45,791 bases of DNA from NCBI GenBank assembly GCA_026395995.1, contig JAPLXQ010000003.1, forward strand, positions 1 through 45,791. Direction: 5' to 3'. Under the pieces are notes generated by a model. It was not told the origin of the DNA. It searched no databases and saw nothing but the letters and a program-made list of their open reading frames with translations. The position numbers and the translations under genes are program-made. Within the stretch, counting starts at the first letter, position 1, and every line of letters begins with the position of its first letter. Below are positions 11,418 through 44,822 of this stretch, in pieces. The stretch comes from Candidatus Nomurabacteria bacterium (GTDB lineage: Bacteria; Patescibacteriota; Minisyncoccia; Phycocordibacterales; UBA9973).

Positions 11418-12215
11418 ATGAAAATACATAAAGCAAAAAAATCATTAGGTCAAAACTTTTTAAAATCAGTACCAGCACTGAACGCTATTGTGAATGCCGG
11501 AGAAGTAAAAGATACTGATACTATTTTAGAGATTGGTCCTGGAAAAGGAGCACTGACTGAAAAACTTTTAGAGAAAGCTGGCACAGTTATTGCTATTGAA
11601 AAAGACAAAGACCTACTAGAATTTTTGAAAGAAAAATTTAAAACAGAAATTGAAAATGAAAAATTAATTTTAATAAATGAAGATATTTTAGAGCACCCCC
11701 TCCCAACCTCCCCCTTGGCGAAGGGGGAGGGGAAATACAAGATTATCGCTAACATTCCATACAATATCACCGGAGCGATTTTGAAAAAATTTTTAACAGC
11801 CGAAAATCAACCAGAAAGAATGGTCTTAATGGTACAAAATGAAGTAGCAAAAAGAATCGTCGCTCGTGATGGGTCAGAAAGTATTTTATCAATTTCCGTG
11901 AAAGCTTATGGAAATCCAAAAATAATAATGAAAGTGCCAGCACGATATTTTTCACCAGCACCTAAGGTGGATTCTGCTATTATTGCAATTACAGATATAA
12001 ATAGGGATAATTTTAAAGATAAAAAACTAGAAGATATTTTTTGGACTTTAGTTAAGACTGGTTTTGCACACAAAAGAAAGATATTATTAAGTAACTTAAA
12101 AGAAATCGCTAGGCAAGACCTAACGATAATATTTAAATCTTTAAATATTTCAGAGAAAGTTCGAGCCGAAGAACTAGATCTAAAAGACTGGTTGGAAATT
12201 GCTAAAAAATTATAA
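11418..12215 (+). CDS. rsmA: 16S rRNA dimethyladenosine transferase RsmA/KsgA
   Basis: 265 residues. It dimethylates two adjacent adenines near the 3' end of 16S rRNA during 30S assembly, using S-adenosylmethionine. It starts with the family signature KSLGQNFLKS, followed by SAM motif I ILEIGPGKGALTEKLL (about 37-52), the acidic motif VIAIEKDKDL, and catalytic motif IV NIPYNITG (about 113-120). Between NEDILE and KYKIIANIPYN there are about 13 extra residues (HPLPTSPLAKGEG) encoded by a GC-rich palindrome at 11694-11738. Ordinary RsmA proteins have a short loop here, so this is an in-frame insertion before the motif IV strand. It is otherwise intact. Confidence 0.96.
   Translation: MKIHKAKKSLGQNFLKSVPALNAIVNAGEVKDTDTILEIGPGKGALTEKLLEKAGTVIAIEKDKDLLEFLKEKFKTEIENEKLILINEDILEHPLPTSPLAKGEGKYKIIANIPYNITGAILKKFLTAENQPERMVLMVQNEVAKRIVARDGSESILSISVKAYGNPKIIMKVPARYFSPAPKVDSAIIAITDINRDNFKDKKLEDIFWTLVKTGFAHKRKILLSNLKEIARQDLTIIFKSLNISEKVRAEELDLKDWLEIAKKL
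11694..11738. repeat. CTCCCC-type palindromic element inside rsmA
   Basis: Core CTCCCCCTT-GGCG-AAGGGGGAG with a C-rich 5' tail and the end GGGAAATAC. It is read in frame as HPLPTSPLAKGEGKY. The base composition stands out sharply from the AT-rich gene around it. Confidence 0.85.
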
Positions 12216-12223
12216 CTTTGTGT

Positions 12224-12229
12224 TATAAT
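12224..12229 (+). promoter_or_regulatory. -10 box at the head of the secretion cluster
   Basis: Perfect TATAAT with 6 nt to the GTG at 12236. It overlaps the end of rsmA (stop at 12213-12215) by spacing of only 8 nt, and is the first promoter of the 12236-29661 gene series. Confidence 0.6.
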
Positions 12230-12235
12230 TAAAAA

Positions 12236-12616
12236 GTGAAAAAAGATTGGAAAAAAATTGGAGTAATACTAATAGTTTTATTATCTTTTAAAATAGCTTA
12301 TGCATCAGGCGGGCAAGTTTTTGGTGGTAAAATTACTGAAGCTCCAGATACTCAAGTAAAAACTTTAGATGAAGGAGATTACAATTGTGAACCACAAAAT
12401 ACAACGATTGATATAAATCCATTCAAAGGACCTCAAAAATTCTACATACCACAAGGAACAGAATCAAAATCACACAACAAAGAGAAGGTTGGTCAGTGGG
12501 TTATTGGTCTTTATAGTGGTACGACTACAATAACTTGTACAATGAAACAATACCCTTTCTCTGTACAAACATTTCAATTTAATACTATAAAGAAAATTTG
12601 GGGTAATTCAAAATAA
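12236..12616 (+). CDS. Small exported protein at head of type IV secretion-like cluster
   Basis: 126 residues, unrecognised, starting with GTG. Residues 1-24 form a signal peptide (basic start, hydrophobic core GVILIVLLSFKIAYA, likely cleavage after YAS or nearby). The mature part is a small beta-rich domain with two cysteines (about 53 and 102) that could form a disulfide. The GTG is supported by a TATAAT 6 nt upstream. Its stop overlaps the next start (TAATG at 12614-12618), so the two are translationally coupled. Confidence 0.75.
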   Translation: MKKDWKKIGVILIVLLSFKIAYASGGQVFGGKITEAPDTQVKTLDEGDYNCEPQNTTIDINPFKGPQKFYIPQGTESKSHNKEKVGQWVIGLYSGTTTITCTMKQYPFSVQTFQFNTIKKIWGNSK

Positions 12617-13596
12617 TGTTTAAAAACATACTAAAAAAGATATTAAATAGTAAGAATATGCCAAGTAAAAAAATACAAGTAATTGTAATTGCCTGTATTG
12701 GTGTATTAATTATATTTATTTTCTTTTTAAAATCTGCTACAAAGTCTAACTTTCTAGCAGAAAAAAAACAGTTGGAAATACAAAATTCAACAATTAACGA
12801 CTTAATTGCAAAAGATACCGATGGTGATGGGGTTCCAGACTGGGAAGAGGCTCTCTGGGGTACAGACAAAAATAAAACAACGACTTTTGAAGGTATTACA
12901 GACAAAACATACATCGAAAACAAGAAAAAAGACTTAAACATTACAAATTCTACAAGCAATACTGAATCTTTGACTGAAACAGAGAAATTCTCTAGAGATT
13001 TCTTTACTGCCTTTATGGCAATGAAGACTGGGCAAGTAGATAACACAGCAATCAATAGTTTTTCTGCTGCATTAGGCCAAAAAGTCGCCAATCCAAATAT
13101 TATAGATCAATACACGCAAAAAGACGTAAAAATAGACAAATCTGGTAATGCCACAAAAGAAGCCAATTATTATATGGATATTCAAAGCTCTTTTGAATAT
13201 TACCAGCTGGCTGGTCTTGGTGACGAGCTAGACATTGTAAGCAATACAATTGCTACAGCACCAAATACAGAATCAAAAGACCAAAATGAACAATTATTAA
13301 AAATTTCTGAGGCTTACAAAGGTTTTGCGACAAAAATAATGACACTCGAAGTACCAGAAAAACTTGTCACCTATCATTTAAAAATAGCTAATAGTGCTAA
13401 CAATACAGGTATCAGTGTCGGAAATATGTCAAAAATAGTCAGTGACCCAGTCATTGGCCTTTCTGGTCTTTCTCAATATCAAAAATATAGTGATGACTTA
13501 ATTAATGCTGCAAAAGAATTGGAATCAACTTTACCAAATAGTAATGCTATAATAGAAAGTGTGAATCAGAACAGTACCCCTTCAAAAGGAATCTAA
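12616..13596 (+). CDS. Membrane-anchored protein with calcium-binding-type repeat
   Basis: 326 residues. One transmembrane helix near the N-terminus (about 17-37, IVIACIGVLIIFIFFLK) is followed by an extracytoplasmic domain. Residues about 66-85 read DTDGDGVPDWEEALWGTD, the DxDxDG pattern of thrombospondin-type-3/EF-hand-like calcium sites common in CPR surface proteins. The rest is helical with a Ser/Thr-rich linker and no recognised fold. It overlaps the upstream gene by 1 nt and lies 27 nt before the next, so it belongs to the secretion operon. Surface assembly or adhesion is plausible but inferred. Confidence 0.8.
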   Translation: MFKNILKKILNSKNMPSKKIQVIVIACIGVLIIFIFFLKSATKSNFLAEKKQLEIQNSTINDLIAKDTDGDGVPDWEEALWGTDKNKTTTFEGITDKTYIENKKKDLNITNSTSNTESLTETEKFSRDFFTAFMAMKTGQVDNTAINSFSAALGQKVANPNIIDQYTQKDVKIDKSGNATKEANYYMDIQSSFEYYQLAGLGDELDIVSNTIATAPNTESKDQNEQLLKISEAYKGFATKIMTLEVPEKLVTYHLKIANSANNTGISVGNMSKIVSDPVIGLSGLSQYQKYSDDLINAAKELESTLPNSNAIIESVNQNSTPSKGI

Positions 13597-13623
13597 AAGA
13601 TTTAATAAATAGGTGAATAAAAA

Positions 13624-16383
13624 ATGATCTCAATACGTCAGATATACAAACAAATAATTGGTTCTATAATAATCGGAAGTATTATTTTAATGCCTTTCAG
13701 TGGACAATTACAAAAAAATTATGCTGAAGCTAATTCAGCAGGTATTGCAGGATATGTAAAAGGCCTTGCTCCTCTTATTGTCAGTCTTCCTGGTTGTAAG
13801 GAAATTCTAAAATCTGGAATGCAAGACATGTTTTCTAAAATAAAAGGAGCTTTCAAAAAAACAAAGAGTAGTTCTGGTTCTGGACATGATGCAGACCCAA
13901 ATGGTACCGGCATAGACGACACAGGGACAACAACTCAAGCAAAAGCAGAATCAGTGCCTGTTTTTGATGTTACTGTTTATAACAACACAAAAAGTACAGC
14001 CAGCTCAACTTCAGAAATAGAAGCTTCTACTGGTTCGATGAATAAAAATCAGGGTTGTTTAAATTCAATAGGAAAGGCTGTCGCGAAAATGCTTCTAACT
14101 GAAATGACAAAAAGTATGGTGGAATGGATAAACGGAGGTTTTGATGGTACACCAAAATTTGTTCATGATATTCCTGGATTTTTTCAAGATGTCGCGAAAA
14201 ATGAAATTTTACAATTTGGATTAGAAATAAATAATCCTTTACTTTTCCCGTTTGGAAAAGATTTCATAAAAATGCAAAAAAGGAGATTTGTAAAACAATT
14301 TGCAGACAATGCAAAATATTCTCTTAATGAGGTGATAGCAAATGGTAACCCTGGACACACTGCAGCTGATTTCAAGGTTAGCTTTGCTGATGGTGGTTGG
14401 GGAGCATGGAATGCAATGACACAACTTCCACAAAACAACCCTATTGGGTTTAATGTTGCAGCATCAAATGAAATGCAAATCAGACTTGATGGTACAGCAA
14501 AATCAACTGCTCAAAATATTCGTGATGGTATCGCCACAGCAAATGGCTATTTGAATCAGGAACGTTGTGCTTCACCATCTCACGATATTACTAGAGGGGA
14601 AGATGCAAAAGCATTGAGAGGTGTAGATGGTGCTAGACGTTGTACTGTATGGGAGACAGTCACCCCTGGTCACCTTATTTCAGAATCTGCTACAAAGACC
14701 TTACAATTTAGATCAGATTCACTTTTATCTGTAACTGACTTAAACGATGCAGCTGCAGCCTTGATAGATGCATCACTTAGTCTACTTGTGACAAAAGTCG
14801 CTGGTGATGATGGTTATGCAGGATTATCAGACGATCCAAACAGTGATATGGCCTTTAATACAGACACTTCTTTGACTTCCAATGGAAACGTCGAAAAAGA
14901 TTTTCCAGGTGATATGGGTGATAGTGATTGGTTGAATGCCAACCAAGACTTTAATATTCGCACAGATCTTACCCAAGCACTCATAGATGAACAAAGAATC
15001 TTTATGCAAAAACTGCAAGATCAAAATGTGGAACTAAAATCTGTTAAAAAAATTGGTAATCAAAAATGGAATTATGGTTTGCTTCCAATTATTTATCAGT
15101 TAGATTATTGTATCCCTGGACCACACCCAGGATATGAAGAAGAAGCTCAGACAAACCTAGACGCGGCTGAAGCCAAAATCGTTGATATTGGTGGAATGAA
15201 TTTCGCTCAAATAAACAAAGCTACAGGTACTGGAAGTTCAGCAGACTGGGACACCATGTTTCTTGCGTTTAACACTTTCGTCGTAGGAACAGGGGGTATA
15301 GCTAATTATGAAACGATTGACAAAACTCTTCATTTAACTGATAAATATGCTTATCAGTATTTATCAGATTTCCCAAATAAATATTTAGGGATCCAATTTA
15401 AAAAAGATGGTGCATCAGAATCATATAGTAATACTATAGAAGCGCTGGACCAAGCATTTAGTGGTTATCAAGCGATGATCAATAATGTATATAATACGTT
15501 AACATTACCAGGTGTTGCTGACCAGGCTAAAAGAGAATTTAACACAGCTAGTGGCTACCAATCAATGTTTGATAAAAATGTTGCAGATATTGCTCTAAAA
15601 AAAGCTGACATCAAAAGATTGTCAGATATAAAAGATAAAATAGATACTTTGACTATTCAAAAAGATAACCATACTCTTCCATTAACCATGATAGATCCAG
15701 CTACAAACCTAATTACTACAGATTATAATGCTCAATTCGAAGAAGATTTAAAACCTTATATTGGTTCATTCTCTAGAATTTCTCTCAACATGAAAACAGG
15801 GGATGAAATAGCTAAGGCTGATAGCCTACTACAACAAATAAAAGATAAAGAAAAATATATTTATAATGATTTATTAAAAGGTGCAACTGGTTGTGAAAAA
15901 GAACTTTCAACACCACCAGCTTTTAAATTATGGCAGCTTAAAAGATATAACTATCCTTTACCTAATATTTATAACTATGACGGTGTAGGCTCTACTATTC
16001 CGGACCCGTTTGGAAATGGTATATTTCATTCAGGGCAAATAGCCAACACTTCAGTATATCAATATGAATCTGGACAAGGTGCTCCAGGGCTATGGTGGGT
16101 TAATTTTTCAAGTTCTGTTATTCTCCCACACTTTGACGGGCAAGAATACAGTTCTTCTGGATCAGGAAATGGAAATATGTATCAAGACTGGCATACAATA
16201 GGGTCACTATGTCAAAGCATCGCAGAAAGAATGCTATTAACAACCGTGGGTGTTCCTTATGGGAATTGTAGAGTAGCAGCTAGTAATTTTACAAATATGT
16301 ATATTCAAGCATTAAATTTTGAAAGCGATGATCAAGGACCATACAACATAACCACATTTGAAAAAACATTAGGGATTTATTAA
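13624..16383 (+). CDS. 919-residue exported protein of secretion cluster, unknown
   Basis: No family recognised. The N-terminus has a membrane/signal segment (about 8-27, IIGSIIIGSIILMPFSG) followed by a short conserved-looking helix (GYVKGLAPLIVSLPGCKEIL). A Gly/Ser/Asp/Thr-rich linker spans about 78-135. The large central region includes LLTEMTKSMVEWINGGFDG..FVHDIPGFFQDVAK, which resembles an amphipathic or pore-like segment. A helical, coiled-coil-prone stretch lies at about 655-690 (DIALKKADIKRLSDIKDKID). Several cysteines are spread along it. AGGTG-like bases at 13611-13615 are one of the few Shine-Dalgarno-like leads in the window. Its place just before the adhesin gene suggests an exported component of the apparatus. 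Confidence 0.8.
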   Translation: MISIRQIYKQIIGSIIIGSIILMPFSGQLQKNYAEANSAGIAGYVKGLAPLIVSLPGCKEILKSGMQDMFSKIKGAFKKTKSSSGSGHDADPNGTGIDDTGTTTQAKAESVPVFDVTVYNNTKSTASSTSEIEASTGSMNKNQGCLNSIGKAVAKMLLTEMTKSMVEWINGGFDGTPKFVHDIPGFFQDVAKNEILQFGLEINNPLLFPFGKDFIKMQKRRFVKQFADNAKYSLNEVIANGNPGHTAADFKVSFADGGWGAWNAMTQLPQNNPIGFNVAASNEMQIRLDGTAKSTAQNIRDGIATANGYLNQERCASPSHDITRGEDAKALRGVDGARRCTVWETVTPGHLISESATKTLQFRSDSLLSVTDLNDAAAALIDASLSLLVTKVAGDDGYAGLSDDPNSDMAFNTDTSLTSNGNVEKDFPGDMGDSDWLNANQDFNIRTDLTQALIDEQRIFMQKLQDQNVELKSVKKIGNQKWNYGLLPIIYQLDYCIPGPHPGYEEEAQTNLDAAEAKIVDIGGMNFAQINKATGTGSSADWDTMFLAFNTFVVGTGGIANYETIDKTLHLTDKYAYQYLSDFPNKYLGIQFKKDGASESYSNTIEALDQAFSGYQAMINNVYNTLTLPGVADQAKREFNTASGYQSMFDKNVADIALKKADIKRLSDIKDKIDTLTIQKDNHTLPLTMIDPATNLITTDYNAQFEEDLKPYIGSFSRISLNMKTGDEIAKADSLLQQIKDKEKYIYNDLLKGATGCEKELSTPPAFKLWQLKRYNYPLPNIYNYDGVGSTIPDPFGNGIFHSGQIANTSVYQYESGQGAPGLWWVNFSSSVILPHFDGQEYSSSGSGNGNMYQDWHTIGSLCQSIAERMLLTTVGVPYGNCRVAASNFTNMYIQALNFESDDQGPYNITTFEKTLGIY

Positions 16384-16385
16384 AA

Positions 16386-19511: not shown

Positions 19512-19617
19512 TTCAACCCCAATCCCTTATCAGGGGCTTACTGCAAATAAACTTTCTGAAAATTTTGAACGAAGGTTTCCCTTCCTTGATAAGGGAAGGT
19601 TAGGATGGGTTGTATTT
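19510..19617. repeat. CTCCCC-family palindromic element pair between genes
   Basis: The 19512-19696 gap contains AACCCCAATCCCTTATCAGGGG on the left and TTCCCTTCCTTGATAAGGGAAGG followed by GGATGGGTTGTATT on the right. Both are local palindromes and their outer tails are roughly complementary. A short open frame across this region (19486-19671) is an artefact of the repeat. Confidence 0.65.
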
Positions 19618-21891: not shown

Positions 21892-22701
21892 ATGGATGAA
21901 AATACAAAAAAAACAATAAAGGAAAAATTTGATTCTCTACCAGAGAGTATTCAAGAAATTATTTTATCTTCAGACTATCAAAATACCTTAGTTGAAATAG
22001 GGAAGTCAAATCAACTAACCATACCACAAATGGGAACACTTGAATTGGAGACCACTCTCGTCATGATGGGATTAACACCGACAAAGAATTTTGAAGCAGA
22101 ACTTACAAAAGAATTAGGGGTCAACCCAATGAAAGGTTCACAAATAGTTAATGAAATAAATACAAAAATCTTTTTAAGAATTCGAGATTTATTAAAATTA
22201 ATGAATACTCCAAAAGGAGAGGAGCCTAGCTTGGAAGAAACTTCCAATTTAAAAGGAGTAGAGAATATTCCATTTAAAGTTTTTACACCAGTAGTAAATA
22301 CAATAAATACAACAAAATCCACCTCACCCCAACCCTCTCCTTATAAAGAAGAGGGAGTTAGTATGCAAGATAATTCTGTTTTAAATCATGCTGGAATTGA
22401 AATTGTGAATCCAGTTTTAATGAGAAATGCTGTACCTTCTGATGCTGGAGGGGAGACAAGAAATGAAATGCTAAAAGACGTGGAACAACCAAGTTTAATT
22501 GGCAAAATACCACCAGTAGTAAAAGAAGAAAAAATATTTCCCTCAAGTCTAGTCTCTAAATTATCTGAAACTGTCAAAATGCCAGGTTCTACTACTGAAT
22601 ACTCAATGAATAATCTAACTAAAAATTCAAACCAAACTCCGTTGGCGGCTAATCCAAAATTGCCCAAAGTAGATCCTTACAGAATGTCACCGGATGAATA
22701 G
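21892..22701 (+). CDS. Unknown cytoplasmic protein of secretion cluster
   Basis: 269 residues, unrecognised. Residues 1-110 are helical and folded-looking (IKEKFDSLPESIQEIILSSD, LELETTLVMMGLTPTKNFEAEL), while the remainder is low-complexity and probably unstructured. Within that part TSPQPSPYKEEGV (about 144-156) is encoded by a palindromic element at 22320-22357. No signal peptide or membrane helix. Position between the VirB6-like and PrgI-like genes suggests a cytosolic accessory of the secretion apparatus. It ends with TAG, and a double palindromic element follows. Confidence 0.75.
   Translation: MDENTKKTIKEKFDSLPESIQEIILSSDYQNTLVEIGKSNQLTIPQMGTLELETTLVMMGLTPTKNFEAELTKELGVNPMKGSQIVNEINTKIFLRIRDLLKLMNTPKGEEPSLEETSNLKGVENIPFKVFTPVVNTINTTKSTSPQPSPYKEEGVSMQDNSVLNHAGIEIVNPVLMRNAVPSDAGGETRNEMLKDVEQPSLIGKIPPVVKEEKIFPSSLVSKLSETVKMPGSTTEYSMNNLTKNSNQTPLAANPKLPKVDPYRMSPDE
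22320..22357. repeat. CTCCCC-type palindromic element inside gene 21892-22701
   Basis: CACCCCAACCCTCTCCTTATAA..AGAAGAGGGAG, an 8-9-bp imperfect stem with the typical C-rich 5' tail. It is read in frame as SPQPSPYKEEG, a different reading phase from the copy in rsmA. Confidence 0.8.
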
Positions 22702-22703: not shown

Positions 22704-22806
22704 TTTTTCTCCCTCCTCTTCGCCAAGGGGAGGGCTGGGGTGGGGTGGGGTGTAAATTTAATCACCCCCTCTCATTCTCCCCCTTGGCGAAGAGGGAGAA
22801 GAAATA
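22704..22806. repeat. Two palindromic elements in opposite orientation (large cruciform)
   Basis: Copy one (about 22706-22751) has CTCCTCTTCGCCAAGGGGAG with a GGGGTGGGGTGGGG tail. Copy two (about 22762-22805) is inverted and reads CACCCCCT..CTCCCCCTTGGCGAAGAGG. Their outer arms (TTTCTCCCTC and GAGGGAGAAGAAA) are complementary, so the whole 103 bp can fold as one long stem with inner hairpins. It fills the gap before the PrgI-like gene and ends 17 nt before that gene's -10 box. Confidence 0.75.
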
Positions 22807-28221: not shown

Positions 28222-29661
28222 ATGCAAAAAAGAAATGTTGTACTTTTAATAATCACTTTAGTAGCAATAACTGCTGGTTTTTTTCTGTATCTATATTTTT
28301 TCCCTCAGGCAAAACCTGTAGTAAATAATCCAGATGTCACTTCACAAAACTTTTTTCCATTTGGAAATACTCCAAAGAAAAATACACCTACAGGCCCAGC
28401 CAATATATCGGGACTGGGGATATTAAATCCTTTGACAGGTGATGGTGGATCAACAAATACTCTACCTATCAAAAAAATCTCAAGCTTTCCCATAGCTGGA
28501 TTCGGAATTTACAACAAAGAAGTGTTTTCTAATATTCCAGCAGTGGTAAATACAACCACACCCCAAACCCTCCCCTTATCAGGTGAGGGAGTAAATACTA
28601 CTACGACTAACACTACCACTCAACCCCCTGACAAGGGGGCGAAGGGGGTTGTATTAAAAACAACAAAACCAATCAAGCCAACTCCACCACCAACAGAATT
28701 GATTACAATGGTTCGATATATAAACAAAGAAAATGGAAATATTTACCAAACACCAGCTGATACTATCACTGAAACAAAATACACAAATACAATAATTCCA
28801 AAAATTTACGAAGGTTTATTTGTAAGCAATACAAAGACTGTTGTAATGCGATATTTAAATATCGACAATAAAACAATTGAAAGTTATTTAGGGATTTTAC
28901 CGGTTGAAGTTTTAGGAGGGGATGGAACTGGAACAAATGAAATAAAAGGTTCTTTCTTGCCACAAAACATTATCGATATGAGTATCTCACCAGACAATAG
29001 TAATATTTTTTATCTATTCAAGAATGCCTCAAACAATGATTCTAGTATTATCGGTACTACCGCTGGTGCACAAGGAGATAAAAAGACTCAGATCTTTAGC
29101 TCAGCTTTTACTGGTTGGCTTTCACAATGGCCTAATGCAAAAATAATTACATTGACTACAAAACCAGCTGCTGATTATCCTGGATATATGTATTCTATTG
29201 ATCCAAACAAAAAAGATTTTAATAAAATCTTAGGTGGCATAAACGGACTCACTACATTGACCAGTCCATCTGGAGCAGATGTCCTTTATAACAATTCTAC
29301 AAATGGTGGTTTGGATTTAAATATCTATCATATCAATAGTGGCAACTCGGACAAATTATCTATTAAAACATTACCTGAAAAATGTGTTTGGACAAAAGCC
29401 AATGATGCTATTTATTGTGCTGTTCCTAGATTTTTAGATAATGCTAAATACCCTGATGCTTGGTACAAAGGATTGATTTCTTTTGGAGATGAAATCTGGA
29501 AAATAGATGTGACAAATTTAAATGCTAAAAAAATATCTGATCCATTACAGGTAGCAGGAGAGGAAGTAGATGGAATAAAACTTACACTCGATGACAATGA
29601 AAAATACTTGTTCTTTATGAACAAAAAAGATAATTACCTTTGGGAATTAAAGACAATCTAA
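28222..29661 (+). CDS. Anchored protein with propeller-like domain
   Basis: 479 residues. One N-terminal transmembrane helix (about 5-25, NVVLLIITLVAITAGFFLYLYF) is followed by a Pro/Thr-rich exported linker (about 30-170). The C-terminal region has beta-propeller-style repeats with turns such as SISPDNSNIFYLF and LDDNEKYLFFMN, reminiscent of TolB/WD40-like PD40 repeats. Two palindromic elements at 28558-28655 encode part of the linker (PQTLPLSGEGV and QPPDKGAKGVV). It is the last gene of the secretion cluster and meets jag tail to tail with 4 nt between stop codons. Function unknown. Confidence 0.78.
   Translation: MQKRNVVLLIITLVAITAGFFLYLYFFPQAKPVVNNPDVTSQNFFPFGNTPKKNTPTGPANISGLGILNPLTGDGGSTNTLPIKKISSFPIAGFGIYNKEVFSNIPAVVNTTTPQTLPLSGEGVNTTTTNTTTQPPDKGAKGVVLKTTKPIKPTPPPTELITMVRYINKENGNIYQTPADTITETKYTNTIIPKIYEGLFVSNTKTVVMRYLNIDNKTIESYLGILPVEVLGGDGTGTNEIKGSFLPQNIIDMSISPDNSNIFYLFKNASNNDSSIIGTTAGAQGDKKTQIFSSAFTGWLSQWPNAKIITLTTKPAADYPGYMYSIDPNKKDFNKILGGINGLTTLTSPSGADVLYNNSTNGGLDLNIYHINSGNSDKLSIKTLPEKCVWTKANDAIYCAVPRFLDNAKYPDAWYKGLISFGDEIWKIDVTNLNAKKISDPLQVAGEEVDGIKLTLDDNEKYLFFMNKKDNYLWELKTI
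28558..28655. repeat. Two CTCCCC-type palindromic elements inside gene 28222-29661
   Basis: Copy one (28558-28592) has ACCCTCCCCTTATCAGGTGAGGGAG. Copy two (28621-28655) has CCCCCTGACAAGGGGG plus CGAAGGGGGTTGTATT. They are separated by a Thr-coding run. Both are read in frame, and the outer parts could pair across the pair. Confidence 0.75.
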
Positions 29662-29665: not shown

Positions 29666-30220
29666 TTATATATTACCTATGTATTTAATTACGACTCTGC
29701 GAGTAGGTCCATAGCCAGTTGACTCTGATTTTAAATCACTAGAATTGGAAACATATTCATGTACAATACGACGATCAAAAGCAGACATTGGATCGACTTC
29801 TACACTTGATTGAAAATATCTAGCTCGTTCAGCTATCATATGTGCAACAGCCCGGACATTTTCAACTCTTTTTTTATGAAAACCATCTATATCTATCAAG
29901 ATACCTTCCACTGTTTTCTCCCCCTGCGAAGGGGGAGTGCCTGAAGGGCGAGGGGGTGTGACCTCTCCGTCCTCTGGACACCTCTCCTTATCAGGAGAGG
30001 AAGAATTCTCCACAATTCTCCTAATCAAATGATTGAGTGAATGTAAAGCTTCACCTTCACGACTAGTGAAAAAATGAGGCTGATCTACAGAGACAGAGTA
30101 CCATGTTGTTTGAGAATTATTTTCTTTTAAGACATCAATATTTAGAACAGAAATATTCATATTTTGAATTATTTCTTTTATTAAATTTTGTATTTCTGTA
30201 TTATTCATAATATTTTTCAT
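29666..30220 (-). CDS. jag: Jag/KhpB RNA-binding protein (KH + R3H)
   Basis: 184 residues. Jag/KhpB is an RNA-binding protein with KH and R3H domains that influences cell division and wall synthesis and is nearly always next to yidC. The N-terminal half (about 10-85) fits the KH domain. The C-terminal R3H domain carries MSAFDRRIVHEY..TRRVVIKYIG. Between them, where most homologs have a short loop before the strand GILIDIDGFHKKR, there are about 26 extra residues rich in Pro, Gly and Ser encoded by two palindromic elements at 29916-30001. Starts at 30220 or at the methionine five codons in are both possible. Confidence 0.9.
   Translation of the reverse strand: MKNIMNNTEIQNLIKEIIQNMNISVLNIDVLKENNSQTTWYSVSVDQPHFFTSREGEALHSLNHLIRRIVENSSSPDKERCPEDGEVTPPRPSGTPPSQGEKTVEGILIDIDGFHKKRVENVRAVAHMIAERARYFQSSVEVDPMSAFDRRIVHEYVSNSSDLKSESTGYGPTRRVVIKYIGNI
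29916..30001. repeat. Two palindromic elements inside jag
   Basis: 29918-29960 carries CTCCCCCTGCGAAGGGGGAG plus an 18-nt arm ending GGGGGTGTG. 29981-30000 carries the perfect palindrome CCTCTCCTTATCAGGAGAGG. Translated from the minus strand they give SSPDKERCPEDGEV and TPPRPSGTPPSQGEK. The longer element is the same type as that in tsaE, but inserted in the other orientation relative to the gene. Confidence 0.8.
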
Positions 30221-31020: not shown

Positions 31021-31062
31021 AACACCCTCCCTAGCCCTCCCCTTAGCGAAGGGGAGGGGAAA
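31021..31062. repeat. CTCCCC-type palindromic element between yidC and yidD
   Basis: ACACCCTCCCTAGCCCTCCCCTTAGCGAAGGGGAGGGG. It abuts the stop codon of yidD (31063-31065) exactly. The core stem CCTCCCCTT..AAGGGGAGG is perfect, and the tail is the same C-rich tail as in the other copies. Confidence 0.85.
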
Positions 31063-31281
31063 TTAAATTAGTGGATCCATATGATTTTTCTGCCAAGGAT
31101 GACAACGTAGAATCCTTAAGACCGTTAGTCTTAAACCCTTAAGGGATCCATATTTTTCTATTGCTTGTTTACTATATTCTGAACATGTAGGATAAAAAAC
31201 GCAATTTCTTTTGTTTTTTAAAGGTGAAATTCTCTTTTGATAAAAATCAATTAATTTTATTAAGTATATTTTTAATTTCAT
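31063..31281 (-). CDS. yidD: Membrane protein insertion efficiency factor YidD
   Basis: 72 residues, the normal length. The family signature is clear: RISPLKNKRNCVFYPTCSEY, then QAIEKYGSLKGLRLTVLRIL and RCHPW. It is a small membrane-associated protein that helps YidC-dependent insertion. It overlaps the 3' end of rnpA by 35 nt, as is usual for this gene pair. Confidence 0.94.
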   Translation of the reverse strand: MKLKIYLIKLIDFYQKRISPLKNKRNCVFYPTCSEYSKQAIEKYGSLKGLRLTVLRILRCHPWQKNHMDPLI

Positions 31282-31669
31282 TTTCTAGATTTAAGATAGG
31301 ATTATAAAGCTTATTTTTCTTTTTTCCAAAGAATTCCATGCTTTTCTTACCAAAGACAAATACTCCAATCAGCCCCTCTCCTTTCCAGGAGAGGGTAGGG
31401 TGAGGTTCTTGGTGAGGTTCATTTTTTAATAACTTTCTTAAAACAGCATAACCACGACGACGTAGTAAATTCCTTCCAACAGCTCTTTTGCAAGCTGTTT
31501 TTGGGGCAGTAAAGGAAATACGGATTGAGTTCTCCCTCCCATTCGCTAAGGGGAGGGCTGGGGTGGGGTGCATGTATTTAAAAGATAAATTGGCAGAATT
31601 AACAAAACGGCCTTCTTTGAAGACCTTTTCGACCGTTTTACGGTCAGTTCTGTTTTTTTTAGGTAGCAT
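31247..31669 (-). CDS. rnpA: Ribonuclease P protein component
   Basis: 140 residues, slightly long for RnpA (about 110-125). The protein subunit of RNase P supports tRNA 5' maturation. Recognisable parts are LPKKNRTDRKTVEKVFKEGR, the core strand IRISFTAPK, and the signature ACKRAVGRNLLRRRGYAVLRK (the family's RNR-type motif). Two palindromic elements add residues: YMHPTPALPLANGREN (from 31531-31571) before the core strand and PHPTLSWKGEGL (from 31371-31407) after the RNR helix. Both are loop positions in the usual fold. Overlaps yidD by 35 nt and lies 14 nt after rpmH. Confidence 0.92.
   Translation of the reverse strand: MLPKKNRTDRKTVEKVFKEGRFVNSANLSFKYMHPTPALPLANGRENSIRISFTAPKTACKRAVGRNLLRRRGYAVLRKLLKNEPHQEPHPTLSWKGEGLIGVFVFGKKSMEFFGKKKNKLYNPILNLENEIKNILNKIN
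31371..31407. repeat. Palindromic element inside rnpA (3' copy)
   Basis: CCCCTCTCCTTTCCAGGAGAGG followed by GTAGGGTGAGG. The core stem CCTCTCCT..AGGAGAGG is nearly perfect. On the minus strand it is read as EPHPTLSWKGEGL. Confidence 0.8.
31531..31571. repeat. Palindromic element inside rnpA (5' copy)
   Basis: TCTCCCTCCCATTCGCTAAGGGGAGGG followed by CTGGGGTGGGGTG. The stem CTCCC..GGGAG is imperfect. On the minus strand it is read as HPTPALPLANGREN. Confidence 0.8.
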
Positions 31670-37437: not shown

Positions 37438-37478
37438 ACTTTAATCATAGCAAATTGTATGTTATTATACGAGTATAT

Positions 37479-38675: not shown

Positions 38676-38718
38676 AATAAAAAATCGTCGCTCATGAGCG
38701 ACGATTTTTTATTTTATT
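38671..38718. terminator. 48-bp perfect palindrome, shared terminator
   Basis: Both arms are 24 nt and perfectly complementary with no spacer (centre between 38694 and 38695, core TCGTCGCTCATGAGCGACGA, flanked by A- and T-tracts). It contains the stop codon of tyrS (38673-38675) and, at the mirror position, that of the small acidic protein (38714-38716). The T-tract on each strand makes it a bidirectional terminator. Confidence 0.9.
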
Positions 38719-38857
38719 CTTCTACTTCTTCATGAAACCCATGACCCAAGATAGGATCTTCAACGTCTAAGTCAGCGACTTCCAAGGCATCTGGTTCTTC
38801 ATCTAGATCTGGTAGACCAAAATTTCCTTCTTTTACTTCTTCATCTTCATAATCCAT
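38714..38857 (-). CDS. Small acidic protein
   Basis: 47 residues, starting MDYEDEEVKEGNFGLPDLDE and ending FHEEVEE. About 40 percent Asp/Glu, no membrane segment. No family recognised. Support comes from its tail-to-tail layout with tyrS across a symmetrical terminator and from a reading frame that fills the gap exactly. It could be a short acidic RNA-mimic or RNA-polymerase-associated protein, but nothing shows this. Confidence 0.6.
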   Translation of the reverse strand: MDYEDEEVKEGNFGLPDLDEEPDALEVADLDVEDPILGHGFHEEVEE

Positions 38858-38954
38858 ATATACTTTTACTTTTTATTTTTTAAAAACGACCTTGATAATA
38901 AATTAATTATTTAATTTCTTTATTTTATATCAAATCCAGTTTACTTCCGCAATC

Positions 38955-39446: not shown

Positions 39447-39473
39447 AAGTTAATTATAACAGATAGAGATGAC

Positions 39474-40013: not shown

Positions 40014-40018
40014 GTTTT

Positions 40019-41011
40019 TTATTTCATTTCAAATCCTAAATGCTCATAGGCTTTGTGGGTAGCAGTGCGTCCACGAGCTGTGCGTTCGAGGAGGCCGAGC
40101 TGGATCATATATGGTTCGATGACTTCTTCGATAGTTGCTTCTTCTTCAGACGTTGCAGCAGCGAGAGTTTTTAATCCGACTGGTCCACCATTAAATTTTT
40201 CAATAATTATTTCAAGTATTTTTCTATCAGCAGAGTTTAGTCCTATTTCATCTACTTCTAGAAGTGCTAAAGCCTTCTTCACAGTTTCCTTATCAAATTT
40301 ATTCTTATGAACCTGTGCGAAGTCACGACAGCGTTTCAAAAAGTAATTTGCAGTGCGGGGAGTAAAGCGTGAGCGCTTTGCTATTTCTTCCATGGCTTCT
40401 TCGTCGACTTCAATATTTAAAATTTTTGCAGAGCGGAGGAGGATTTGTTTTATTTCTTCTTCACTATAAAATTCCATACGGAAAGTTCCTCCAGAGAAAC
40501 GAGAGCGGAGTGGGGAAGAGATGAGCGCCATACGAGTCGTCGCAGCTATGAGTGTGAATGGTGGTAGGTCAAGCTGTATTGTACGAGCAGATGGGCCTTT
40601 ACCGATAATGATATCGAGCACGCCGGATTCCATAGCAGGATAGAGGACTTCCTCGATCATTTTATTAAGTCTGTGGATTTCATCTATAAAAATAATATCT
40701 CCAGGGGCGAGGTTTGTCAGAATACTCGCTAGATCACCGACTTTTTCAATAGCAGGACCGGAAGTTATCTTCATTTGGCGTCCAGATTCTTTGGCGATAA
40801 GGTGGGCGAGGGTAGTTTTACCCAATCCTGGTGGGCCATAGAAAAGGATGTGTTCAGGAATGTGTCCGCGTTCTTCAGCTGCACCCAAAAGGATTTTTAA
40901 ATTATCTTTTATTACTTTTTGGCCAATATAGTCATCCCAGGTCGAAGGACGCAAAGTTTGGTCTAGGTGGCTTTCGTCCTTATTTATATTGGTTTTTGAA
41001 TCTTGGGACAT
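40019..41011 (-). CDS. ruvB: Holliday junction branch migration ATPase RuvB
   Basis: 330 residues, full length. It drives branch migration with RuvA. LRPSTWDDYIGQKVIKDNL near the start, Walker A GPPGLGKTTLAHL (about 60-72), Walker B IIFIDEIHRLNK (about 112-123), sensor 1 LIAATTRMAL, arginine-finger region SPLRSRFS, and the C-terminal winged helix with EEVIEPYMIQLGLLERTARGR. It has its own promoter at 41016-41044 and is followed closely by yebC. Confidence 0.97.
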   Translation of the reverse strand: MSQDSKTNINKDESHLDQTLRPSTWDDYIGQKVIKDNLKILLGAAEERGHIPEHILFYGPPGLGKTTLAHLIAKESGRQMKITSGPAIEKVGDLASILTNLAPGDIIFIDEIHRLNKMIEEVLYPAMESGVLDIIIGKGPSARTIQLDLPPFTLIAATTRMALISSPLRSRFSGGTFRMEFYSEEEIKQILLRSAKILNIEVDEEAMEEIAKRSRFTPRTANYFLKRCRDFAQVHKNKFDKETVKKALALLEVDEIGLNSADRKILEIIIEKFNGGPVGLKTLAAATSEEEATIEEVIEPYMIQLGLLERTARGRTATHKAYEHLGFEMK

Positions 41012-41015
41012 AATT

Positions 41016-41044
41016 TTTATACCTTATTTATCGATATTTGTGAA
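41016..41044 (-). promoter_or_regulatory. Promoter of ruvB-yebC
   Basis: Minus strand: TTCACA (41044-41039), 17-nt spacer, TATAAA (41021-41016), 4 nt to the ATG at 41011. Back to back with the stronger promoter at 41053-41081. Confidence 0.5.
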
Positions 41045-41052
41045 TAATTTGC

Positions 41053-41081
41053 TTGACATTTAAATTCGGTTATGCTATACT
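41053..41081 (+). promoter_or_regulatory. Strong promoter of structured RNA locus
   Basis: TTGACA (41053-41058), 17-nt spacer, TATACT (41076-41081), predicted start about 41088. No open reading frame of meaningful length follows, which suggests the product is RNA. Confidence 0.7.
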
Positions 41082-41087
41082 TTCTTT

Positions 41088-41393
41088 GTACAGTATTTTA
41101 CAGGTGTTATCAACATACATATCCACATTATAGCATTTGTAAGGTATGTGATGGTAGTATAATAGTTTTAGACAAGTTTGATAGAGGATAGCGCCTCTAT
41201 TTTGTTTTCTAAAAAAGAATATAAGATTGGTTTACGAGAAGGCATCAATCTTTAAGCAATCAGCCCCTGGTTCTATAGTTTTGCATAGGACGTTTTGGTT
41301 TCTAATTTATTAATTTCTGGAACCATCCTATAATGATCTATTACTTTTGGAGCTTAGCTCTGGAAGGATTGTTTAAAGATTAATGCTTTTTTT
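41088..41393 (+). ncRNA. Putative structured non-coding RNA (6S-like rod)
   Basis: The gap 41012-41509 has no gene, yet a near-consensus promoter is followed by three stem-loops. First, 41109-41155: ATCAACATAC with GTATGTGAT. Second, about 41166-41217: TTTTAGACAA with TTGTTTTCTAAAA around an inner ATAGAGG/CCTCTAT hairpin. Third and largest, 41242-41261 paired with 41367-41386: 20 positions with one C-A mismatch and one G-U, enclosing about 105 nt with further internal pairing (for example TAGGA...TTGG with CCA-TCCTA), then a run of seven T. The long rod with internal bubble and terminal T-tract recalls 6S RNA. I cannot align it to 6S, and the third domain alone (about 155 nt) could be the mature form. 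Confidence 0.5.
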
Positions 41394-41401
41394 ATTTGTC
41401 C

Positions 41402-41501
41402 GCACGACTACTTATTTTAGTTGCACGGATATTTTTTTACTAAAAAATTCCTCGTGCTCGCGTCGCCACGCTCGCAAAGACACTAAAATAAGTAGTCGTG
41501 C
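41402..41501. repeat. 100-bp nested inverted repeat upstream of pilB end
   Basis: Arms of 20 nt (GCACGACTACTTATTTTAGT, 41402-41421, and its exact complement 41482-41501) enclose 60 nt that hold a second imperfect stem (GCACGGATATTTTTT with AAAAAATTCCTCGTGC) and a GC-rich stretch. It lies between the RNA terminator and the pilB stop codon. It may act as terminator for both strands or be a small palindromic mobile element. Confidence 0.8.
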
Positions 41502-41509
41502 TTCCAAGA

Positions 41510-43207
41510 TTATTCTTCCATAAAGTCTACGACGCTTTTTACTTCATCGTATGAAGTCACACCAGTGAATATTTTTATGATACCATCTTGGCGCATTGAG
41601 AGTATTCCTTGAGTTGAGGCAATTTTTTTTATTTCTCTTTCGGAAGGATTGTTCGGCATTATTTTTTCAATAGCCTCATCTGTTTTGATAGCTTCAAAGA
41701 TTCCCATACGTCCTTTGTAACCAGTCATATTACATTTCTCACAGCCGACAGCCTTAAATAATTTTATTGGCGCGTTTATGTCTACATTATATTTCTTCAA
41801 ATCTTTTCCTTCAGCTACAGCCCCTTCTAAAATCATTTTAATTGTTTTTGTTTCTTCTTCTGTCGGAGCTATTTCTTGTTTGCATTCTTTACAAAGTTTA
41901 CGGACGAGACGCTGAGCAATAGAGAGTGATAAAGCAGAGACAAGAATTTTCGGATTCACTTCAAGGTCGATGAGACGGGGGATGACACCGGCTGCATTGT
42001 TTGTGTGGAGGGTAGAAAAAACAAGGTGACCAGTGAGTGCTGATTCGACTGCAATTTTTGCAGTTTCAGCATCACGGATTTCTCCCACCATCACCACATC
42101 TGGATCTTGTCGGAGTGCAGAGCGAAGCCCTTCTAGGAAAGTATAGCCTTTTAGTGAGTCGGTTTGTGTTTGAGTGATACCAGCTAGGTGGTATTCGATT
42201 GGGTCTTCGATTGTAATAATCTTTATTTCAGAAGAATAAATTTTACGCAGGAAAGCATAAAGAGTAGTAGTCTTACCGGAACCAGTCGGTCCAGTGACTA
42301 AAATCATTCCATTTGGTTTGGCTATTTCAGCTTGAATAATTCCAAAGAGGAAAGGATCAATCCCCATATCTTCTAGATTTACTTGGATAGATTTTGGATC
42401 CAAAATACGCATAACAATAGATTCACCGTAGGCACCTGGAATCATTGAATTACGAATACTAATTTCTTCACCACCAATCATAATAGAAAATCTACCATCT
42501 TGAGCTGTCTTGTTTGTGAGCTTCATTCCAGAAAGAAGCTTTAATCTAGAATTTAATAAACGGTAAATGTCGAGTCCAAAGAACATGACATCTTGTAAGA
42601 CACCGTCCAGACGAAATCGAAGTCTTGAACGAGATTCTTCTGCTTCGAGGTGAATATCGGAAGCTTTGATAGAGATAGCTCCAGCAAGAATGATTTCCAA
42701 TATTCTAGAAATTTTATGTGTTTGTCCGTTGGTCAATGCTTCGGTAATTAATTTCTCGACGTCTTGCATCATTTTTATTTTTCCAGCTGTCTCCATGAGA
42801 ACTTCACCAGAAATATCTAATCCTCCGACTTTGGAGCTTTCAGCCATTGAGAGTTCTGTGTATCTATTCCAAATTTTATTTAAACTTCCCATTGAAGCCA
42901 TGTAAAAAGTCGGTACAAGATTTTTACCCTTCATATCATTCTCTAAATTTGTCATCAAGTCTGGGTCAGGGGAACGAAGGGCAATAGAAATATTTTTACC
43001 AGCCAATTTAAAAGGACCTACGTTTAGTTTGCGAGAGTCAGCCTCAGAGATATATCGAAGTGATTCATTGTCGATAGCAAGACTAGCCAAATTTACATAT
43101 GGGATATTGTATTTTGATTCTGCTAGCATTTGGACCAATTCCTCCTCCTCTTCTTTGTGGATTTCGTCTAATTGCTTTTTTGGTTTATCTTCATTGAATG
43201 ATGTCAT
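41510..43207 (-). CDS. pilB: Type IV pilus assembly ATPase PilB / GspE family
   Basis: 565 residues. It powers pilus extension. An N-terminal MshEN/T2SSE-N-like domain (about 20-160), then the motor with Walker A LVTGPTGSGKTTTLYAFL (about 300-317), the Asp box TIEDPIEYHLAGITQTQ, Walker B VMVGEIRDAETA (about 366-377), and the His box LVFSTLHTNNAAG. The tetracysteine zinc site is KLCKECKQE..CEKCNMTG. TATACT (43221-43216) lies 8 nt upstream of the ATG. It is a lone gene here; no pilC, pilT or pilin is in the window. Confidence 0.95.
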   Translation of the reverse strand: MTSFNEDKPKKQLDEIHKEEEEELVQMLAESKYNIPYVNLASLAIDNESLRYISEADSRKLNVGPFKLAGKNISIALRSPDPDLMTNLENDMKGKNLVPTFYMASMGSLNKIWNRYTELSMAESSKVGGLDISGEVLMETAGKIKMMQDVEKLITEALTNGQTHKISRILEIILAGAISIKASDIHLEAEESRSRLRFRLDGVLQDVMFFGLDIYRLLNSRLKLLSGMKLTNKTAQDGRFSIMIGGEEISIRNSMIPGAYGESIVMRILDPKSIQVNLEDMGIDPFLFGIIQAEIAKPNGMILVTGPTGSGKTTTLYAFLRKIYSSEIKIITIEDPIEYHLAGITQTQTDSLKGYTFLEGLRSALRQDPDVVMVGEIRDAETAKIAVESALTGHLVFSTLHTNNAAGVIPRLIDLEVNPKILVSALSLSIAQRLVRKLCKECKQEIAPTEEETKTIKMILEGAVAEGKDLKKYNVDINAPIKLFKAVGCEKCNMTGYKGRMGIFEAIKTDEAIEKIMPNNPSEREIKKIASTQGILSMRQDGIIKIFTGVTSYDEVKSVVDFMEE

Positions 43208-43268
43208 ATTTCTATAGTATACAGCATTTGAGGCTTAAAATGAAAGCCTTTTTGGCCTATTTTTTAGC

Positions 43269-43297
43269 TTGACTTTTTAATCCTAATATGCTATACT
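43269..43297 (+). promoter_or_regulatory. Promoter of orphan secreted protein
   Basis: TTGACT (43269-43274), 17-nt spacer, TATACT (43292-43297). Expected start about 43304, giving a leader of about 88 nt that contains the hairpin at 43327-43381. Confidence 0.65.
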
Positions 43298-43326
43298 TTA
43301 TAGGTAATACGTTCGTTGAAAAAAGG

Positions 43327-43381
43327 TTTTAAAAGTTATCAATTGTCCCAAATTTATTGGTATTTTTGATAACTTTTAAAA
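43327..43381. repeat. 16-bp perfect hairpin in 5' leader
   Basis: Arms TTTTAAAAGTTATCAA (43327-43342) and the exact complement (43366-43381), loop of 23 nt that includes CCAAATTTATTGG. It ends 10 nt before the ATG at 43392, so its folding could block or expose ribosome entry. It has no T-tract of terminator type in the correct place. Confidence 0.75.
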
Positions 43382-43391
43382 CAAATATATC

Positions 43392-44303
43392 ATGAAAAAC
43401 TTAATTCTTTTAGTAATTGTTGTACTTTTAACAAGCGCAACAACAAATGTAAAACTGTATCCTGTACTTAAACACAAAGATGACCTTACCTCTCGCACTT
43501 TTGAAGAAGTTCTGAATCAGTATCAGGATTCCATTGATTTGGAAAACTGGAAAATGGCGTTAGTAGGAAATGCTTACCAAAGAAGATTATCACCAGCCAG
43601 AATTTTCTGGACAAAAAACTTAAACCAGGATGACCTTCGTTATTATCGTGATTCGGCTACTTATATGGCTCCTATTTCTTTTAATGGAAATGAGATAAAT
43701 ATGGCTGGAGTTGATAGTAAAGGAAATGCACATTTTATCCTTCACCGAAACAGCAAACCCGGTGAAACTGCCGTATTTGTGATTATGAAAATTATGTATG
43801 GCGAATACGAGGACTATCCTGGTCAATTGGCTGATGCACCAACCATTTCGGGTTATTGCTGTAATCCGTTTTATGTTCTTCGTAAGAGGGATGTAAATCA
43901 TTCAGTTCAACCTGTTAAATCTGTGCGACCTGTTGCTCCTGTTCCTGTTTCGGAATCAAACCCAGTGACCTTGAATAATTCTGGTTATAACAATAACCAA
44001 ATTATTGTTCATGATACTGTCTATGTTAGTTCTGGAAATCAGAGTCAGGAAAACTTCGAAAGTGGTAATAGTTATGGAGGAGGACAAAAAGTAAGAGGAA
44101 GCACTTCTACTACTTATGTGTGGACCAGCCCACTACGTGGTTATAGTCATTTTGACTACAATCAACATAGAAGGGCCCGATTTGTTGTTTATAGCAATAT
44201 AAATAATTGCCAAGTGGATTATTTTCCACAACAATCAAATTGTGTGGGAAATAATTCTCACAAACATCAGACACACAGAAGTCATTCCGTGTGTAAAAAT
44301 TAA
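43392..44303 (+). CDS. Orphan secreted protein
   Basis: 303 residues, unrecognised. A short signal peptide (about 1-19, KNLILLVIVVLLTSATT) precedes a conserved-looking N-terminal domain (about 20-165, with LENWKMALVGNAYQRR, ISFNGNEINMAGVDSKG, FVIMKIMYGEYEDYPGQ). The rest is low-complexity, rich in Asn, Ser, Val, Pro and His, ending NNSHKHQTHRSHSVCKN. Base composition is noticeably less AT-rich than its neighbours, a hint of transfer. It has its own promoter, leader hairpin and terminator, and is therefore a single-gene unit. Confidence 0.75.
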   Translation: MKNLILLVIVVLLTSATTNVKLYPVLKHKDDLTSRTFEEVLNQYQDSIDLENWKMALVGNAYQRRLSPARIFWTKNLNQDDLRYYRDSATYMAPISFNGNEINMAGVDSKGNAHFILHRNSKPGETAVFVIMKIMYGEYEDYPGQLADAPTISGYCCNPFYVLRKRDVNHSVQPVKSVRPVAPVPVSESNPVTLNNSGYNNNQIIVHDTVYVSSGNQSQENFESGNSYGGGQKVRGSTSTTYVWTSPLRGYSHFDYNQHRRARFVVYSNINNCQVDYFPQQSNCVGNNSHKHQTHRSHSVCKN

Positions 44304-44306
44304 CGC

Positions 44307-44338
44307 ATACCCCTGGTAACACCCAGGGGTATTTTTTT
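44307..44338 (+). terminator. Rho-independent terminator
   Basis: 10-bp stem ATACCCCTGG/CCAGGGGTAT, loop TAACAC, followed by seven T. It lies 3 nt after the stop of gene 43392-44303. Confidence 0.9.
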
Positions 44339-44357
44339 ATGCTAAAATGAAAAATAT

Positions 44358-44822
44358 ATGAAAAAGATTATTTCAAAAAATACAGAAGAGACAGAAAAAA
44401 TTGCTAAAGATTTTTTAGGGCAGATTTTGTCTTTTCCAAAACAGGCTACAGTCGTGGCCCTATATGGTAATCTCGGTGCAGGAAAGACTACTTTTACTCA
44501 GTCACTAGGTAAACATCTTGGAATAAAAAGAAAAGTAAATAGTCCGACTTTTGTGATCATGAAATCTTATTTTCTCCCCCTGCCAAGGGGGAGTGCCCAA
44601 GGGGCGAGGGGGTGTTTTAAAAACCTTATACATATAGATGCTTATCGTTTGAAAAATGAAAAAGATTTAGAAAATCTAGGTTGGGCAGAAATAATTGCTA
44701 ATCCAGAAAATTTAGTCTTTATCGAATGGCCAGAAAATGTACCAAAAGCACTTCCAAAAAAACACCATAAAATAAAAATCTCTCACACAAAAGAAGGTCA
44801 TAGAAGTTTTGAAATAAAATAA
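44358..44822 (+). CDS. tsaE: tRNA threonylcarbamoyladenosine biosynthesis ATPase TsaE
   Basis: 154 residues. It assists TsaB/TsaD in making t6A37 in tRNA. Walker A YGNLGAGKTTFTQSL (about 35-49), VNSPTFVIMKSY, HIDAYRL (about 93-99), and FIEWPENVP (about 122-130) are intact. Between KSY and NLIHIDAYRL there are about 15 extra residues (FLPLPRGSAQGARGCF) encoded by a palindrome at 44572-44614, where normal proteins have a short loop. A TAAAAT box lies 9 nt before the ATG. It is tail to tail with the gene at 44865. Confidence 0.95.
   Translation: MKKIISKNTEETEKIAKDFLGQILSFPKQATVVALYGNLGAGKTTFTQSLGKHLGIKRKVNSPTFVIMKSYFLPLPRGSAQGARGCFKNLIHIDAYRLKNEKDLENLGWAEIIANPENLVFIEWPENVPKALPKKHHKIKISHTKEGHRSFEIK
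44572..44614. repeat. Palindromic element inside tsaE
   Basis: CTCCCCCTGCCAAGGGGGAG followed by TGCCCAAGGGGCGAGGGGGTG. It is the reverse complement type of the element in jag relative to gene sense, and is read in frame as LPLPRGSAQGARGCF. Confidence 0.85.

Follow-up and report, generated by a model that had tools for sequence, protein, structure and literature searches.

The stretch of DNA analysed here, called the window throughout, is the 45,791-nt contig JAPLXQ010000003.1 (C10) of a Candidatus Nomurabacteria genome (GCA_026395995.1; 760,693 bp in 13 contigs, 98% complete). Its GC content is 34%, and C-rich islands are conspicuous against this background. Our subject is a C-rich palindromic element with a CACCCC tail, together with the DUF559 (PF04480) nuclease genes found beside such elements. 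A first-pass annotation had listed about 13 of these palindromes in the window, at least eight of them in coding regions. The count of 13 was confirmed, with 12 copies reported by covariance models at E<=0.1 (nine by model R1, three by R2) and one recognised by eye, and nine were found to be coding: one each in rsmA, tsaE and the open reading frame (ORF) 21892-22701, and two each in jag, rnpA and ORF 28222-29661. R1 describes a tail and one hairpin and was built from eight window copies, which match it by construction; R2 describes a tail, a small hairpin and a main hairpin, and was built from three. The short motif CTCCCCTT, allowing one mismatch, occurs 41 times in the window, compared with 25.2 by shuffling (standard deviation 4.25, maximum 35 in 100 shuffles).

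In rsmA (ORF 11418-12215, + strand), a type-1 element, which has the CACCCC tail and then a hairpin, lies in frame at 11693-11734 (+) and adds about EHPLPTSPLAKGEGK, as determined by R1 and alignment. Two type-2 elements, which have two hairpins, were placed by R2 in frame in jag (ORF 29666-30220, -) at 29918-29959 (-) and 29960-30000 (+), where they abut tail to tail. The two in-frame copies in rnpA (ORF 31247-31669, -), at 31373-31408 (-) and 31530-31571 (-), add about EPHPTLSWKGEGL and MHPTPALPLANGREN, respectively (R1 and alignment), and an antisense, in-frame type-2 element at 44574-44615 (-) adds about LPLPRGSAQGARGCF to tsaE (ORF 44358-44822, +; R2 and alignment). The names of these four genes are backed by Pfam and NCBIfam, with NCBIfam scores under the curated cut-offs for jag and rnpA, and the domain matches of RsmA and TsaE span the insert. 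Two ORFs on the + strand, 21892-22701 and 28222-29661, have no family match in Pfam or NCBIfam. The former carries an in-frame type-1 copy at 22319-22356 (+; R1); the latter carries one at 28554-28595 (+; R1) and a diverged C-rich palindrome, also in frame, at 28618-28654 (-), which neither model reports and which was excluded from the second model.

The four intergenic copies, all reported by R1, are a weak one at 19576-19613 (-; 29.7 bits), a type-1 copy in the yidC/rnpA gap at 31021-31062 (+), and the two halves of a tail-to-tail doublet, 22707-22748 (-) and 22762-22803 (+). Such doublets were missing from the first-pass annotation; the unit is a hairpin with a third-strand tail, and it often occurs as a doublet.

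Across the genome, R1 reported 83 sites at the E<=0.1 threshold, of which 73 also pass E<=0.001, so the core is enriched beyond the window, and R2 gave 33. Merging the two yields about 94 copies, made up of 81 R1 rows (two 25-nt partial matches overlapping other copies were removed) and 13 R2 rows (after removal of 19 that overlap copies from R1 and of a weak one, C13:242968); 24 of the 94 score below 30 bits. At E<=1e-6 with stricter filters, R1 found 44 copies in this genome and, in the 35 congeners, 44 in total spread over 17 of them; the 24 order-level genomes had none, which indicates that this subfamily has expanded in the present lineage.

About half of the copies (46/94) lie wholly within ORFs that are 140 aa or longer; among the 40 best-scoring ones, 25 do. 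As the first-pass annotation had proposed, phase and orientation vary: 33 of the 46 are co-oriented with their ORF and 13 are antisense, with all three phases in each group. The host ORFs number 32 (34 before two pairs, each the same ORF in two loci, were merged), and 27 of these were named. Outside the window, 23 of 26 host ORFs were named by NCBIfam, although not all 23 meet the curated cut-off, and three had no match at E<=1e-15. These 23, to which rsmA, jag, rnpA and tsaE add the other four, are holB, priA, atpG, a glcD/ydiJ-like gene, gatB, recJ, xerC/D, tig, polA, fpg, an rluA-family gene, argS, recG, ligA, rnr, tgt, uvrB, uvrA, uvrC, infB, lepA, valS and tsaD; two copies at the beginning of the uvrA ORF could be upstream of where the gene truly starts, and a contig end truncates the ORF of recJ. 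Each element or doublet adds about 12-31 residues to conserved proteins.

Alignments of Jag, RsmA, RnpA and TsaE support the earlier suggestion of in-frame additions at loop positions. Ahead of the R3H domain, Jag has a linker of 33 aa here, almost all of it element, and of 6-9 aa in several congeners (L036, L033, L039, L035, L043); Jag loci were available for 29 of the 35 congeners, with L032 excluded. Other palindromes occupy the same linker in frame, C-rich ones in L019, L021 and L024 and unrelated ones in L022, L023, L025 and L026; the one in L025 (genome G030) is long, nearly perfect and of a different kind. The RsmA loop before YKIIANIPY is short, by eye, in 21 of 30 aligned sequences, and it holds other C-rich elements in G013 and G003, an unrelated palindrome in G049 and other longer segments in five genomes (G010, G005, G022, G039, G048). 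Short tandem repeats instead of palindromes seem to fill this loop in several congeners (L317-L346). Both RnpA inserts are absent from all 17 aligned congeners, although the L034 and L040 predictions begin downstream of the first site, a position at which L028 carries a longer segment of another kind. The C-rich TsaE loop insert is absent from 14 of 14 order-level relatives and also from nine congeners; one of the 14, G043, has a loop that is longer but unrelated. In G010, G012, G004 and G003, this loop holds related C-rich inserts, which could be inherited or repeated. Most relatives lack the extra residues in these four genes; the same extra residues in orthologs, a result that would have counted against the first-pass claim, were looked for in TsaE and RnpA and not found.

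These comparisons also bear on whether the segments were ever mobile, or are loop expansions or ancestral low-complexity segments. The latter could be argued from the other short repeats in the RsmA loop of congeners and from the four TsaE inserts, which may be inherited. However, one 42-nt family spread over dozens of unrelated genes and intergenic sites contradicts this explanation, and the covariation described below and the absence of the C-rich insert from order-level TsaE further argue against it, making it scarcely credible.

The 5' tail of the element mirrors the pyrimidine stem, and the complement of the tail could thereby take the third-strand position along the purine stem. Over 89 copies, the mean triad match was 0.845, compared with 0.744 (standard deviation 0.010) when tails were permuted among copies and 0.670 when their letters were shuffled; the observed mean was reached by 0 of 500 replicates in either control, which is no strict probability because related copies are non-independent. 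A triad match of at least 0.9 was found in 63 of the 89 copies, against at most 25 in the controls. Judged by its sequence, the element has the predicted architecture of the BoxC/PIT/TM triplex motif, namely a C-rich stem, a loop, a G-rich stem, a short loop and a second G-rich stem. The TMECO consensus CCCTCNCCC N3-6 GGGNGAGGG N3 GGGNGAGGG has been published (PMC4666352), and the window copies compared with it by eye deviate at stem or loop positions.

BoxC was discovered in E. coli in the 1990s. The published account shares with our elements the pyrimidine stem, loop, purine stem and G-rich third strand, the tandem inverted pairs and the occurrence in many bacteria (PMC4666352). It describes BoxC in E. 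coli as always intergenic, whereas about half of the copies here are in frame in ORFs. The main text of that 2015 paper mentions neither DUF559 nor an endonuclease, proposes no mover and reports no associated mobility gene or mobile elements, while palindromes of the same design are linked here to DUF559. The first-pass annotation had likened the family to the Rickettsia palindromic elements (RPEs) in principle, with an unrelated sequence. The likeness stands, in that palindromes lie in frame in unrelated conserved genes and are absent in relatives; the family is not new, since its architecture is that of BoxC/PIT. An RPE is about 150 bp long and has a conserved peptide (PMC10969869), whereas our elements are about 42 or 93 nt, are read in any phase and on either strand with no such peptide, and differ in sequence and phylum.

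Thirteen adjacent pairs (gap of at most 15 nt) occur genome-wide, and all 13 are tail to tail, including the two in the window (22707-/22762+ and 29918-/29960+). Their centres read, for example, GGGGTGC-TGAATTCA-GCACCCC. The outer flank of the tail in the two nuclease-bearing copies on contigs C7 and C9 is TTCA-GCACCCC; the doublets therefore resemble two joined element ends.

In three congeners, an inverted R1 pair brackets a single ORF of 121-135 aa that matches DUF559, in one case at E 2.5e-34. For all five DUF559 matches of the present genome, the nearest element is 3-18 nt away. The copies on C7 and C9 stand at different sites but have one and the same 3' nuclease sequence and almost identical type-1 palindromes, which is what a repeated element that breaks an assembly should look like, and a copy at C8:65354-65665 (in L132) lies between two palindromes and has an internal stop. 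We examined 30 related DUF559 loci (26 strong, 4 weak), which are not every match. Among the strong ones, a GC-rich hairpin of score 5 or more was present on 21 upstream and 22 downstream sides (43/52), and on both sides in 17/26, whereas of 394 control windows, taken from the same loci at greater distance, 22 had one (Fisher 1.6e-34). The four weak look-alikes had a hairpin on none of their eight sides. DUF559 was matched in 30 of the 60 genomes searched, this genome included. Among congeners it was present in 15 of 17 R1-positive and 8 of 18 R1-negative genomes (p=0.012, counting the weak match of G010 as absent), a moderate association.

The genome also has nine Y1 transposase genes, and the palindromic doublets resemble the organisation of REPINs and BIMEs (bacterial interspersed mosaic elements), so the elements could be repetitive extragenic palindromes (REPs) moved by a Y1 REP-associated tyrosine transposase (RAYT). 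However, no Y1 gene of this genome has an element within 800 nt (0/9, the nearest C-rich element being 845 nt away), against 5/5 for DUF559 (p=0.0005), and by eye the Y1 genes adjoin other, mutually different short palindromes. Y1/RAYT was therefore set aside as the mover, and we regard this explanation as very unlikely. As a separate observation, most of the Y1 (RAYT/IS200-like) genes (window 276-902; L005-L013) are, by eye, accompanied on one side or on both by a short palindrome distinct to each, and in four or more Y1 ORFs (L005, L006, L009, L010) that palindrome also seems to lie in frame before the PNHFH strand.

The link between DUF559 and palindromes extends beyond these related loci. 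From at least 573 DUF559 relatives, the best 80 loci, from many phyla, were taken; L194 repeats L166, and L240 is apparently the same contig as G030:C13. Hairpins of score 7 were present on 34/58, 25/42 and 44/60 sides in three GC classes, compared with 6/262, 5/194 and 17/283 for controls in the same classes, and on both sides of 38 loci. Pooling these with the 26 strong loci (106 sites), a third-strand tail was found on 99 of 152 C-rich hairpins, against a shuffled mean of 12.4 (maximum 18 in 20 shuffles).

The E. coli member of DUF559 is ycjD, and YcjD was earlier catalogued as a PD-(D/E)XK protein detecting Vsr (PMC1189080). A query of ycjD with its flanks was covered over at least 80% in 3,359 of 5,426 genomes, and ycjD was also seen in a DH5alpha record. 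At all three loci checked, TMECO number 9 from the table of PMC4666352 is present letter for letter in the gap between ycjD and fabI. The E. coli sapF-fabI interval was tried as an empty site for ycjD and rejected as not clean, as far as the loci were read; three E. coli genomes without ycjD at this place (L313-L315) carry genes for a major facilitator superfamily transporter and an outer-membrane efflux subunit adjoining sapF.

Filled and empty sites were found elsewhere. In leucyl-tRNA synthetase (LeuRS), the spacing from WIGRSEG to TTRPDT is 25 aa in G005 and G010, 29 aa in G046, and short by eye in G022, G012, G003, G009 and G017. It is 172-188 aa in G023, G020, G014 and G035. In these four, the gap is filled in frame by DUF559, with peptides encoded by the palindromes on either side of it (for example NPSPALPEGEGE and VLSFGEDLGGVE), and DUF559 is also inside LeuRS in G011 and G006. 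Further additions to LeuRS were noticed in relatives (loci L356-L359, L371, L354 and L355): several have a second in-frame segment, about 150 aa long, close to profile position 360-368, while G008, G038 and G044 have an additional segment near position 237, with no DUF559 match reported there.

In Acinetobacter, the site directly 3' of one host gene has palindromes with DUF559 in 12 of 32 genomes, palindromes or short remnants without adjoining DUF559 in 10 (by eye), and neither in the remaining 10. The clean palindrome-only cases are two doublets (L377, L378) and one single (L396). The 32 were drawn from 79 genomes, and 20 were chosen because they lacked the nuclease in the host-gene match, so the split is no frequency. 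Many Acinetobacter genomes also match parts of the palindrome query elsewhere.

We consider it probable that the palindromes are the non-autonomous form, like a miniature inverted-repeat transposable element (MITE), of a mobile element of which the DUF559 endonuclease is the only gene and the mobility enzyme. The first-pass annotation had proposed mobility; it has now gained a candidate enzyme and filled and empty sites, while movement itself is still inferred. The autonomous copy would be a DUF559 gene flanked by two palindromes, mostly inverted, and the solo palindromes and tail-to-tail doublets would be its short derivatives. The nuclease may recognise the hairpin or triplex ends, or a target, and then nick or cut, after which the element could be copied in via repair without duplication of the target. 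The doublets could represent joined ends from a circular or tandem intermediate. In this genus, elements would insert into densely coding sequence, and those that preserve the reading frame at a loop could persist as nearly neutral inserts; LeuRS can even carry the whole nuclease. On a rough estimate, if all in-frame stop-free insertions were kept, about two thirds of copies would lie in genes, and 25 of the 40 best-scoring ones do.

The predicted structure is consistent with such a role. The AlphaFold2 model of DUF559 (pLDDT 86.2, pTM 0.77) matched 3hrl (NGO0050; E 1.4e-7) in Foldseek, then the domain of the homing endonuclease I-Bth0305I (3r3p; E 7.7e-4, probability 1.00) and, weakly, Vsr (1vsr; E 0.068). 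PDB profile matches other than 3hrl were at chance level and were disregarded. Residues E25, D53, E64, D66, H70, D77 and R80, among others, are invariant in 14 aligned DUF559 proteins, which makes an active nuclease plausible.

An alternative is that DUF559 is a passenger, BoxC being spread by an unknown transposase or by recombination, and the DUF559 genes either using the palindromes or surviving inside them as landing pads. Two congeners (G021, G024) have R1 copies and no DUF559 match, direct pairs exist beside inverted ones, and the motif has been tied to rearrangement rather than mobility (PMC4666352). A mere passenger is more difficult to reconcile with the nearness of an element to every DUF559 match here and the enrichment across bacteria, with the same nuclease end and palindrome at two sites on C7 and C9, or with the palindrome-only and nuclease-bearing forms at the one Acinetobacter site. 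We therefore judge it unlikely.

Another possibility is that DUF559 serves in repair or housekeeping, acting on hairpin or triplex DNA or on mismatches, and stays next to palindromes for the sake of regulation or control of its substrate, with the repeats now immobile. In Caulobacter, the protein VsrA contains a DUF559 domain and has been put forward as an endonuclease of mismatch repair (PMC12907096), and this assignment counts against a mobility enzyme as well. A repair role does not sit easily with the patchy occurrence (30/60 genomes), the presence and absence at the Acinetobacter site and the insertion of the gene in frame within LeuRS, and we hold it to be quite improbable.

Several further observations weigh against a mobile element driven by DUF559. 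No movement or cleavage has been observed. No target-site duplication, as used to recognise transposase-type MITEs, was found among the 43 best copies, where repeats of k=2-6 were at the permuted level (with a tolerance of 3, as the assigned ends of an element may be off by a few bases), and no fixed target site is apparent. The nuclease genes on C7 and C9 are cut by contig ends, with only one side visible, and some DUF559-adjacent elements are weak model matches (23-30 bits). Tracking among congeners is imperfect, as 2 of 17 R1-positive genomes lack DUF559 and 8 of 18 R1-negative genomes have it. In the pooled set, 53 of 152 C-rich hairpins have no third-strand tail, 8 of 106 sites have no score-5 hairpin on either side, and the 34 pairs scorable on both sides are not uniform (25 inverted, 14 with tails out and 11 with tails in, and 9 direct). 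The palindrome upstream of ycjD differs and is AT-richer. Finally, an element has on average 3.91 of six frames open, compared with 3.93 for shuffled composition; no coding adaptation is visible, and special stop-freeness was rejected, as there is no excess over composition. It follows that in-gene copies require no special design.

Compared with known systems, the proposed element is like REP/RAYT in having one palindrome-flanked gene, many solo palindromes and inverted doublets. It differs in that the REP enzyme is a Y1 transposase, whereas here there is a PD-(D/E)XK nuclease and the ends are a hairpin with a third strand. Homing endonucleases (Vsr-like I-Bth0305I) and inteins share a similar fold and an in-frame position inside a host enzyme, here LeuRS, but in our case no intron or protein-splicing part was seen and there are many insertion sites, not one. 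The Vsr mismatch endonuclease is a fold relative with a weaker structural match than I-Bth0305I, and we know of no palindrome linkage for it.

A wider picture can be drawn, which we regard as evenly balanced between being right and wrong: a bacteria-wide class of mobile elements would use a DUF559 nuclease of the Vsr/homing fold in place of a transposase, with BoxC repeats as triplex-forming ends, and in Nomurabacteria it would rewrite conserved and essential proteins in frame, including nuclease domains in LeuRS. The movement of BoxC, for which the 2015 paper offers no mover, becomes open to a direct test through the one-gene candidate ycjD in laboratory E. coli. If expressed, the in-frame inserts in conserved single genes (those for polymerase I, ligase, UvrABC, aminoacyl-tRNA synthetases and IF-2) would be a striking natural experiment in insertion tolerance in a reduced genome. 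The repeat design itself is already known; DUF559 as a partner of BoxC-type palindromes appears to be new. Searches of the open-access literature brought up no account connecting the two, and the link is possibly in print elsewhere, as subscription papers and preprints were outside the scope; nor was a report of in-frame palindromic insertion in Patescibacteria found in the open-access literature.

The ends of the window, 9-150 and 45650-45791, form a 142-nt inverted repeat that is 98% complementary, perhaps a repeat where the assembly broke.

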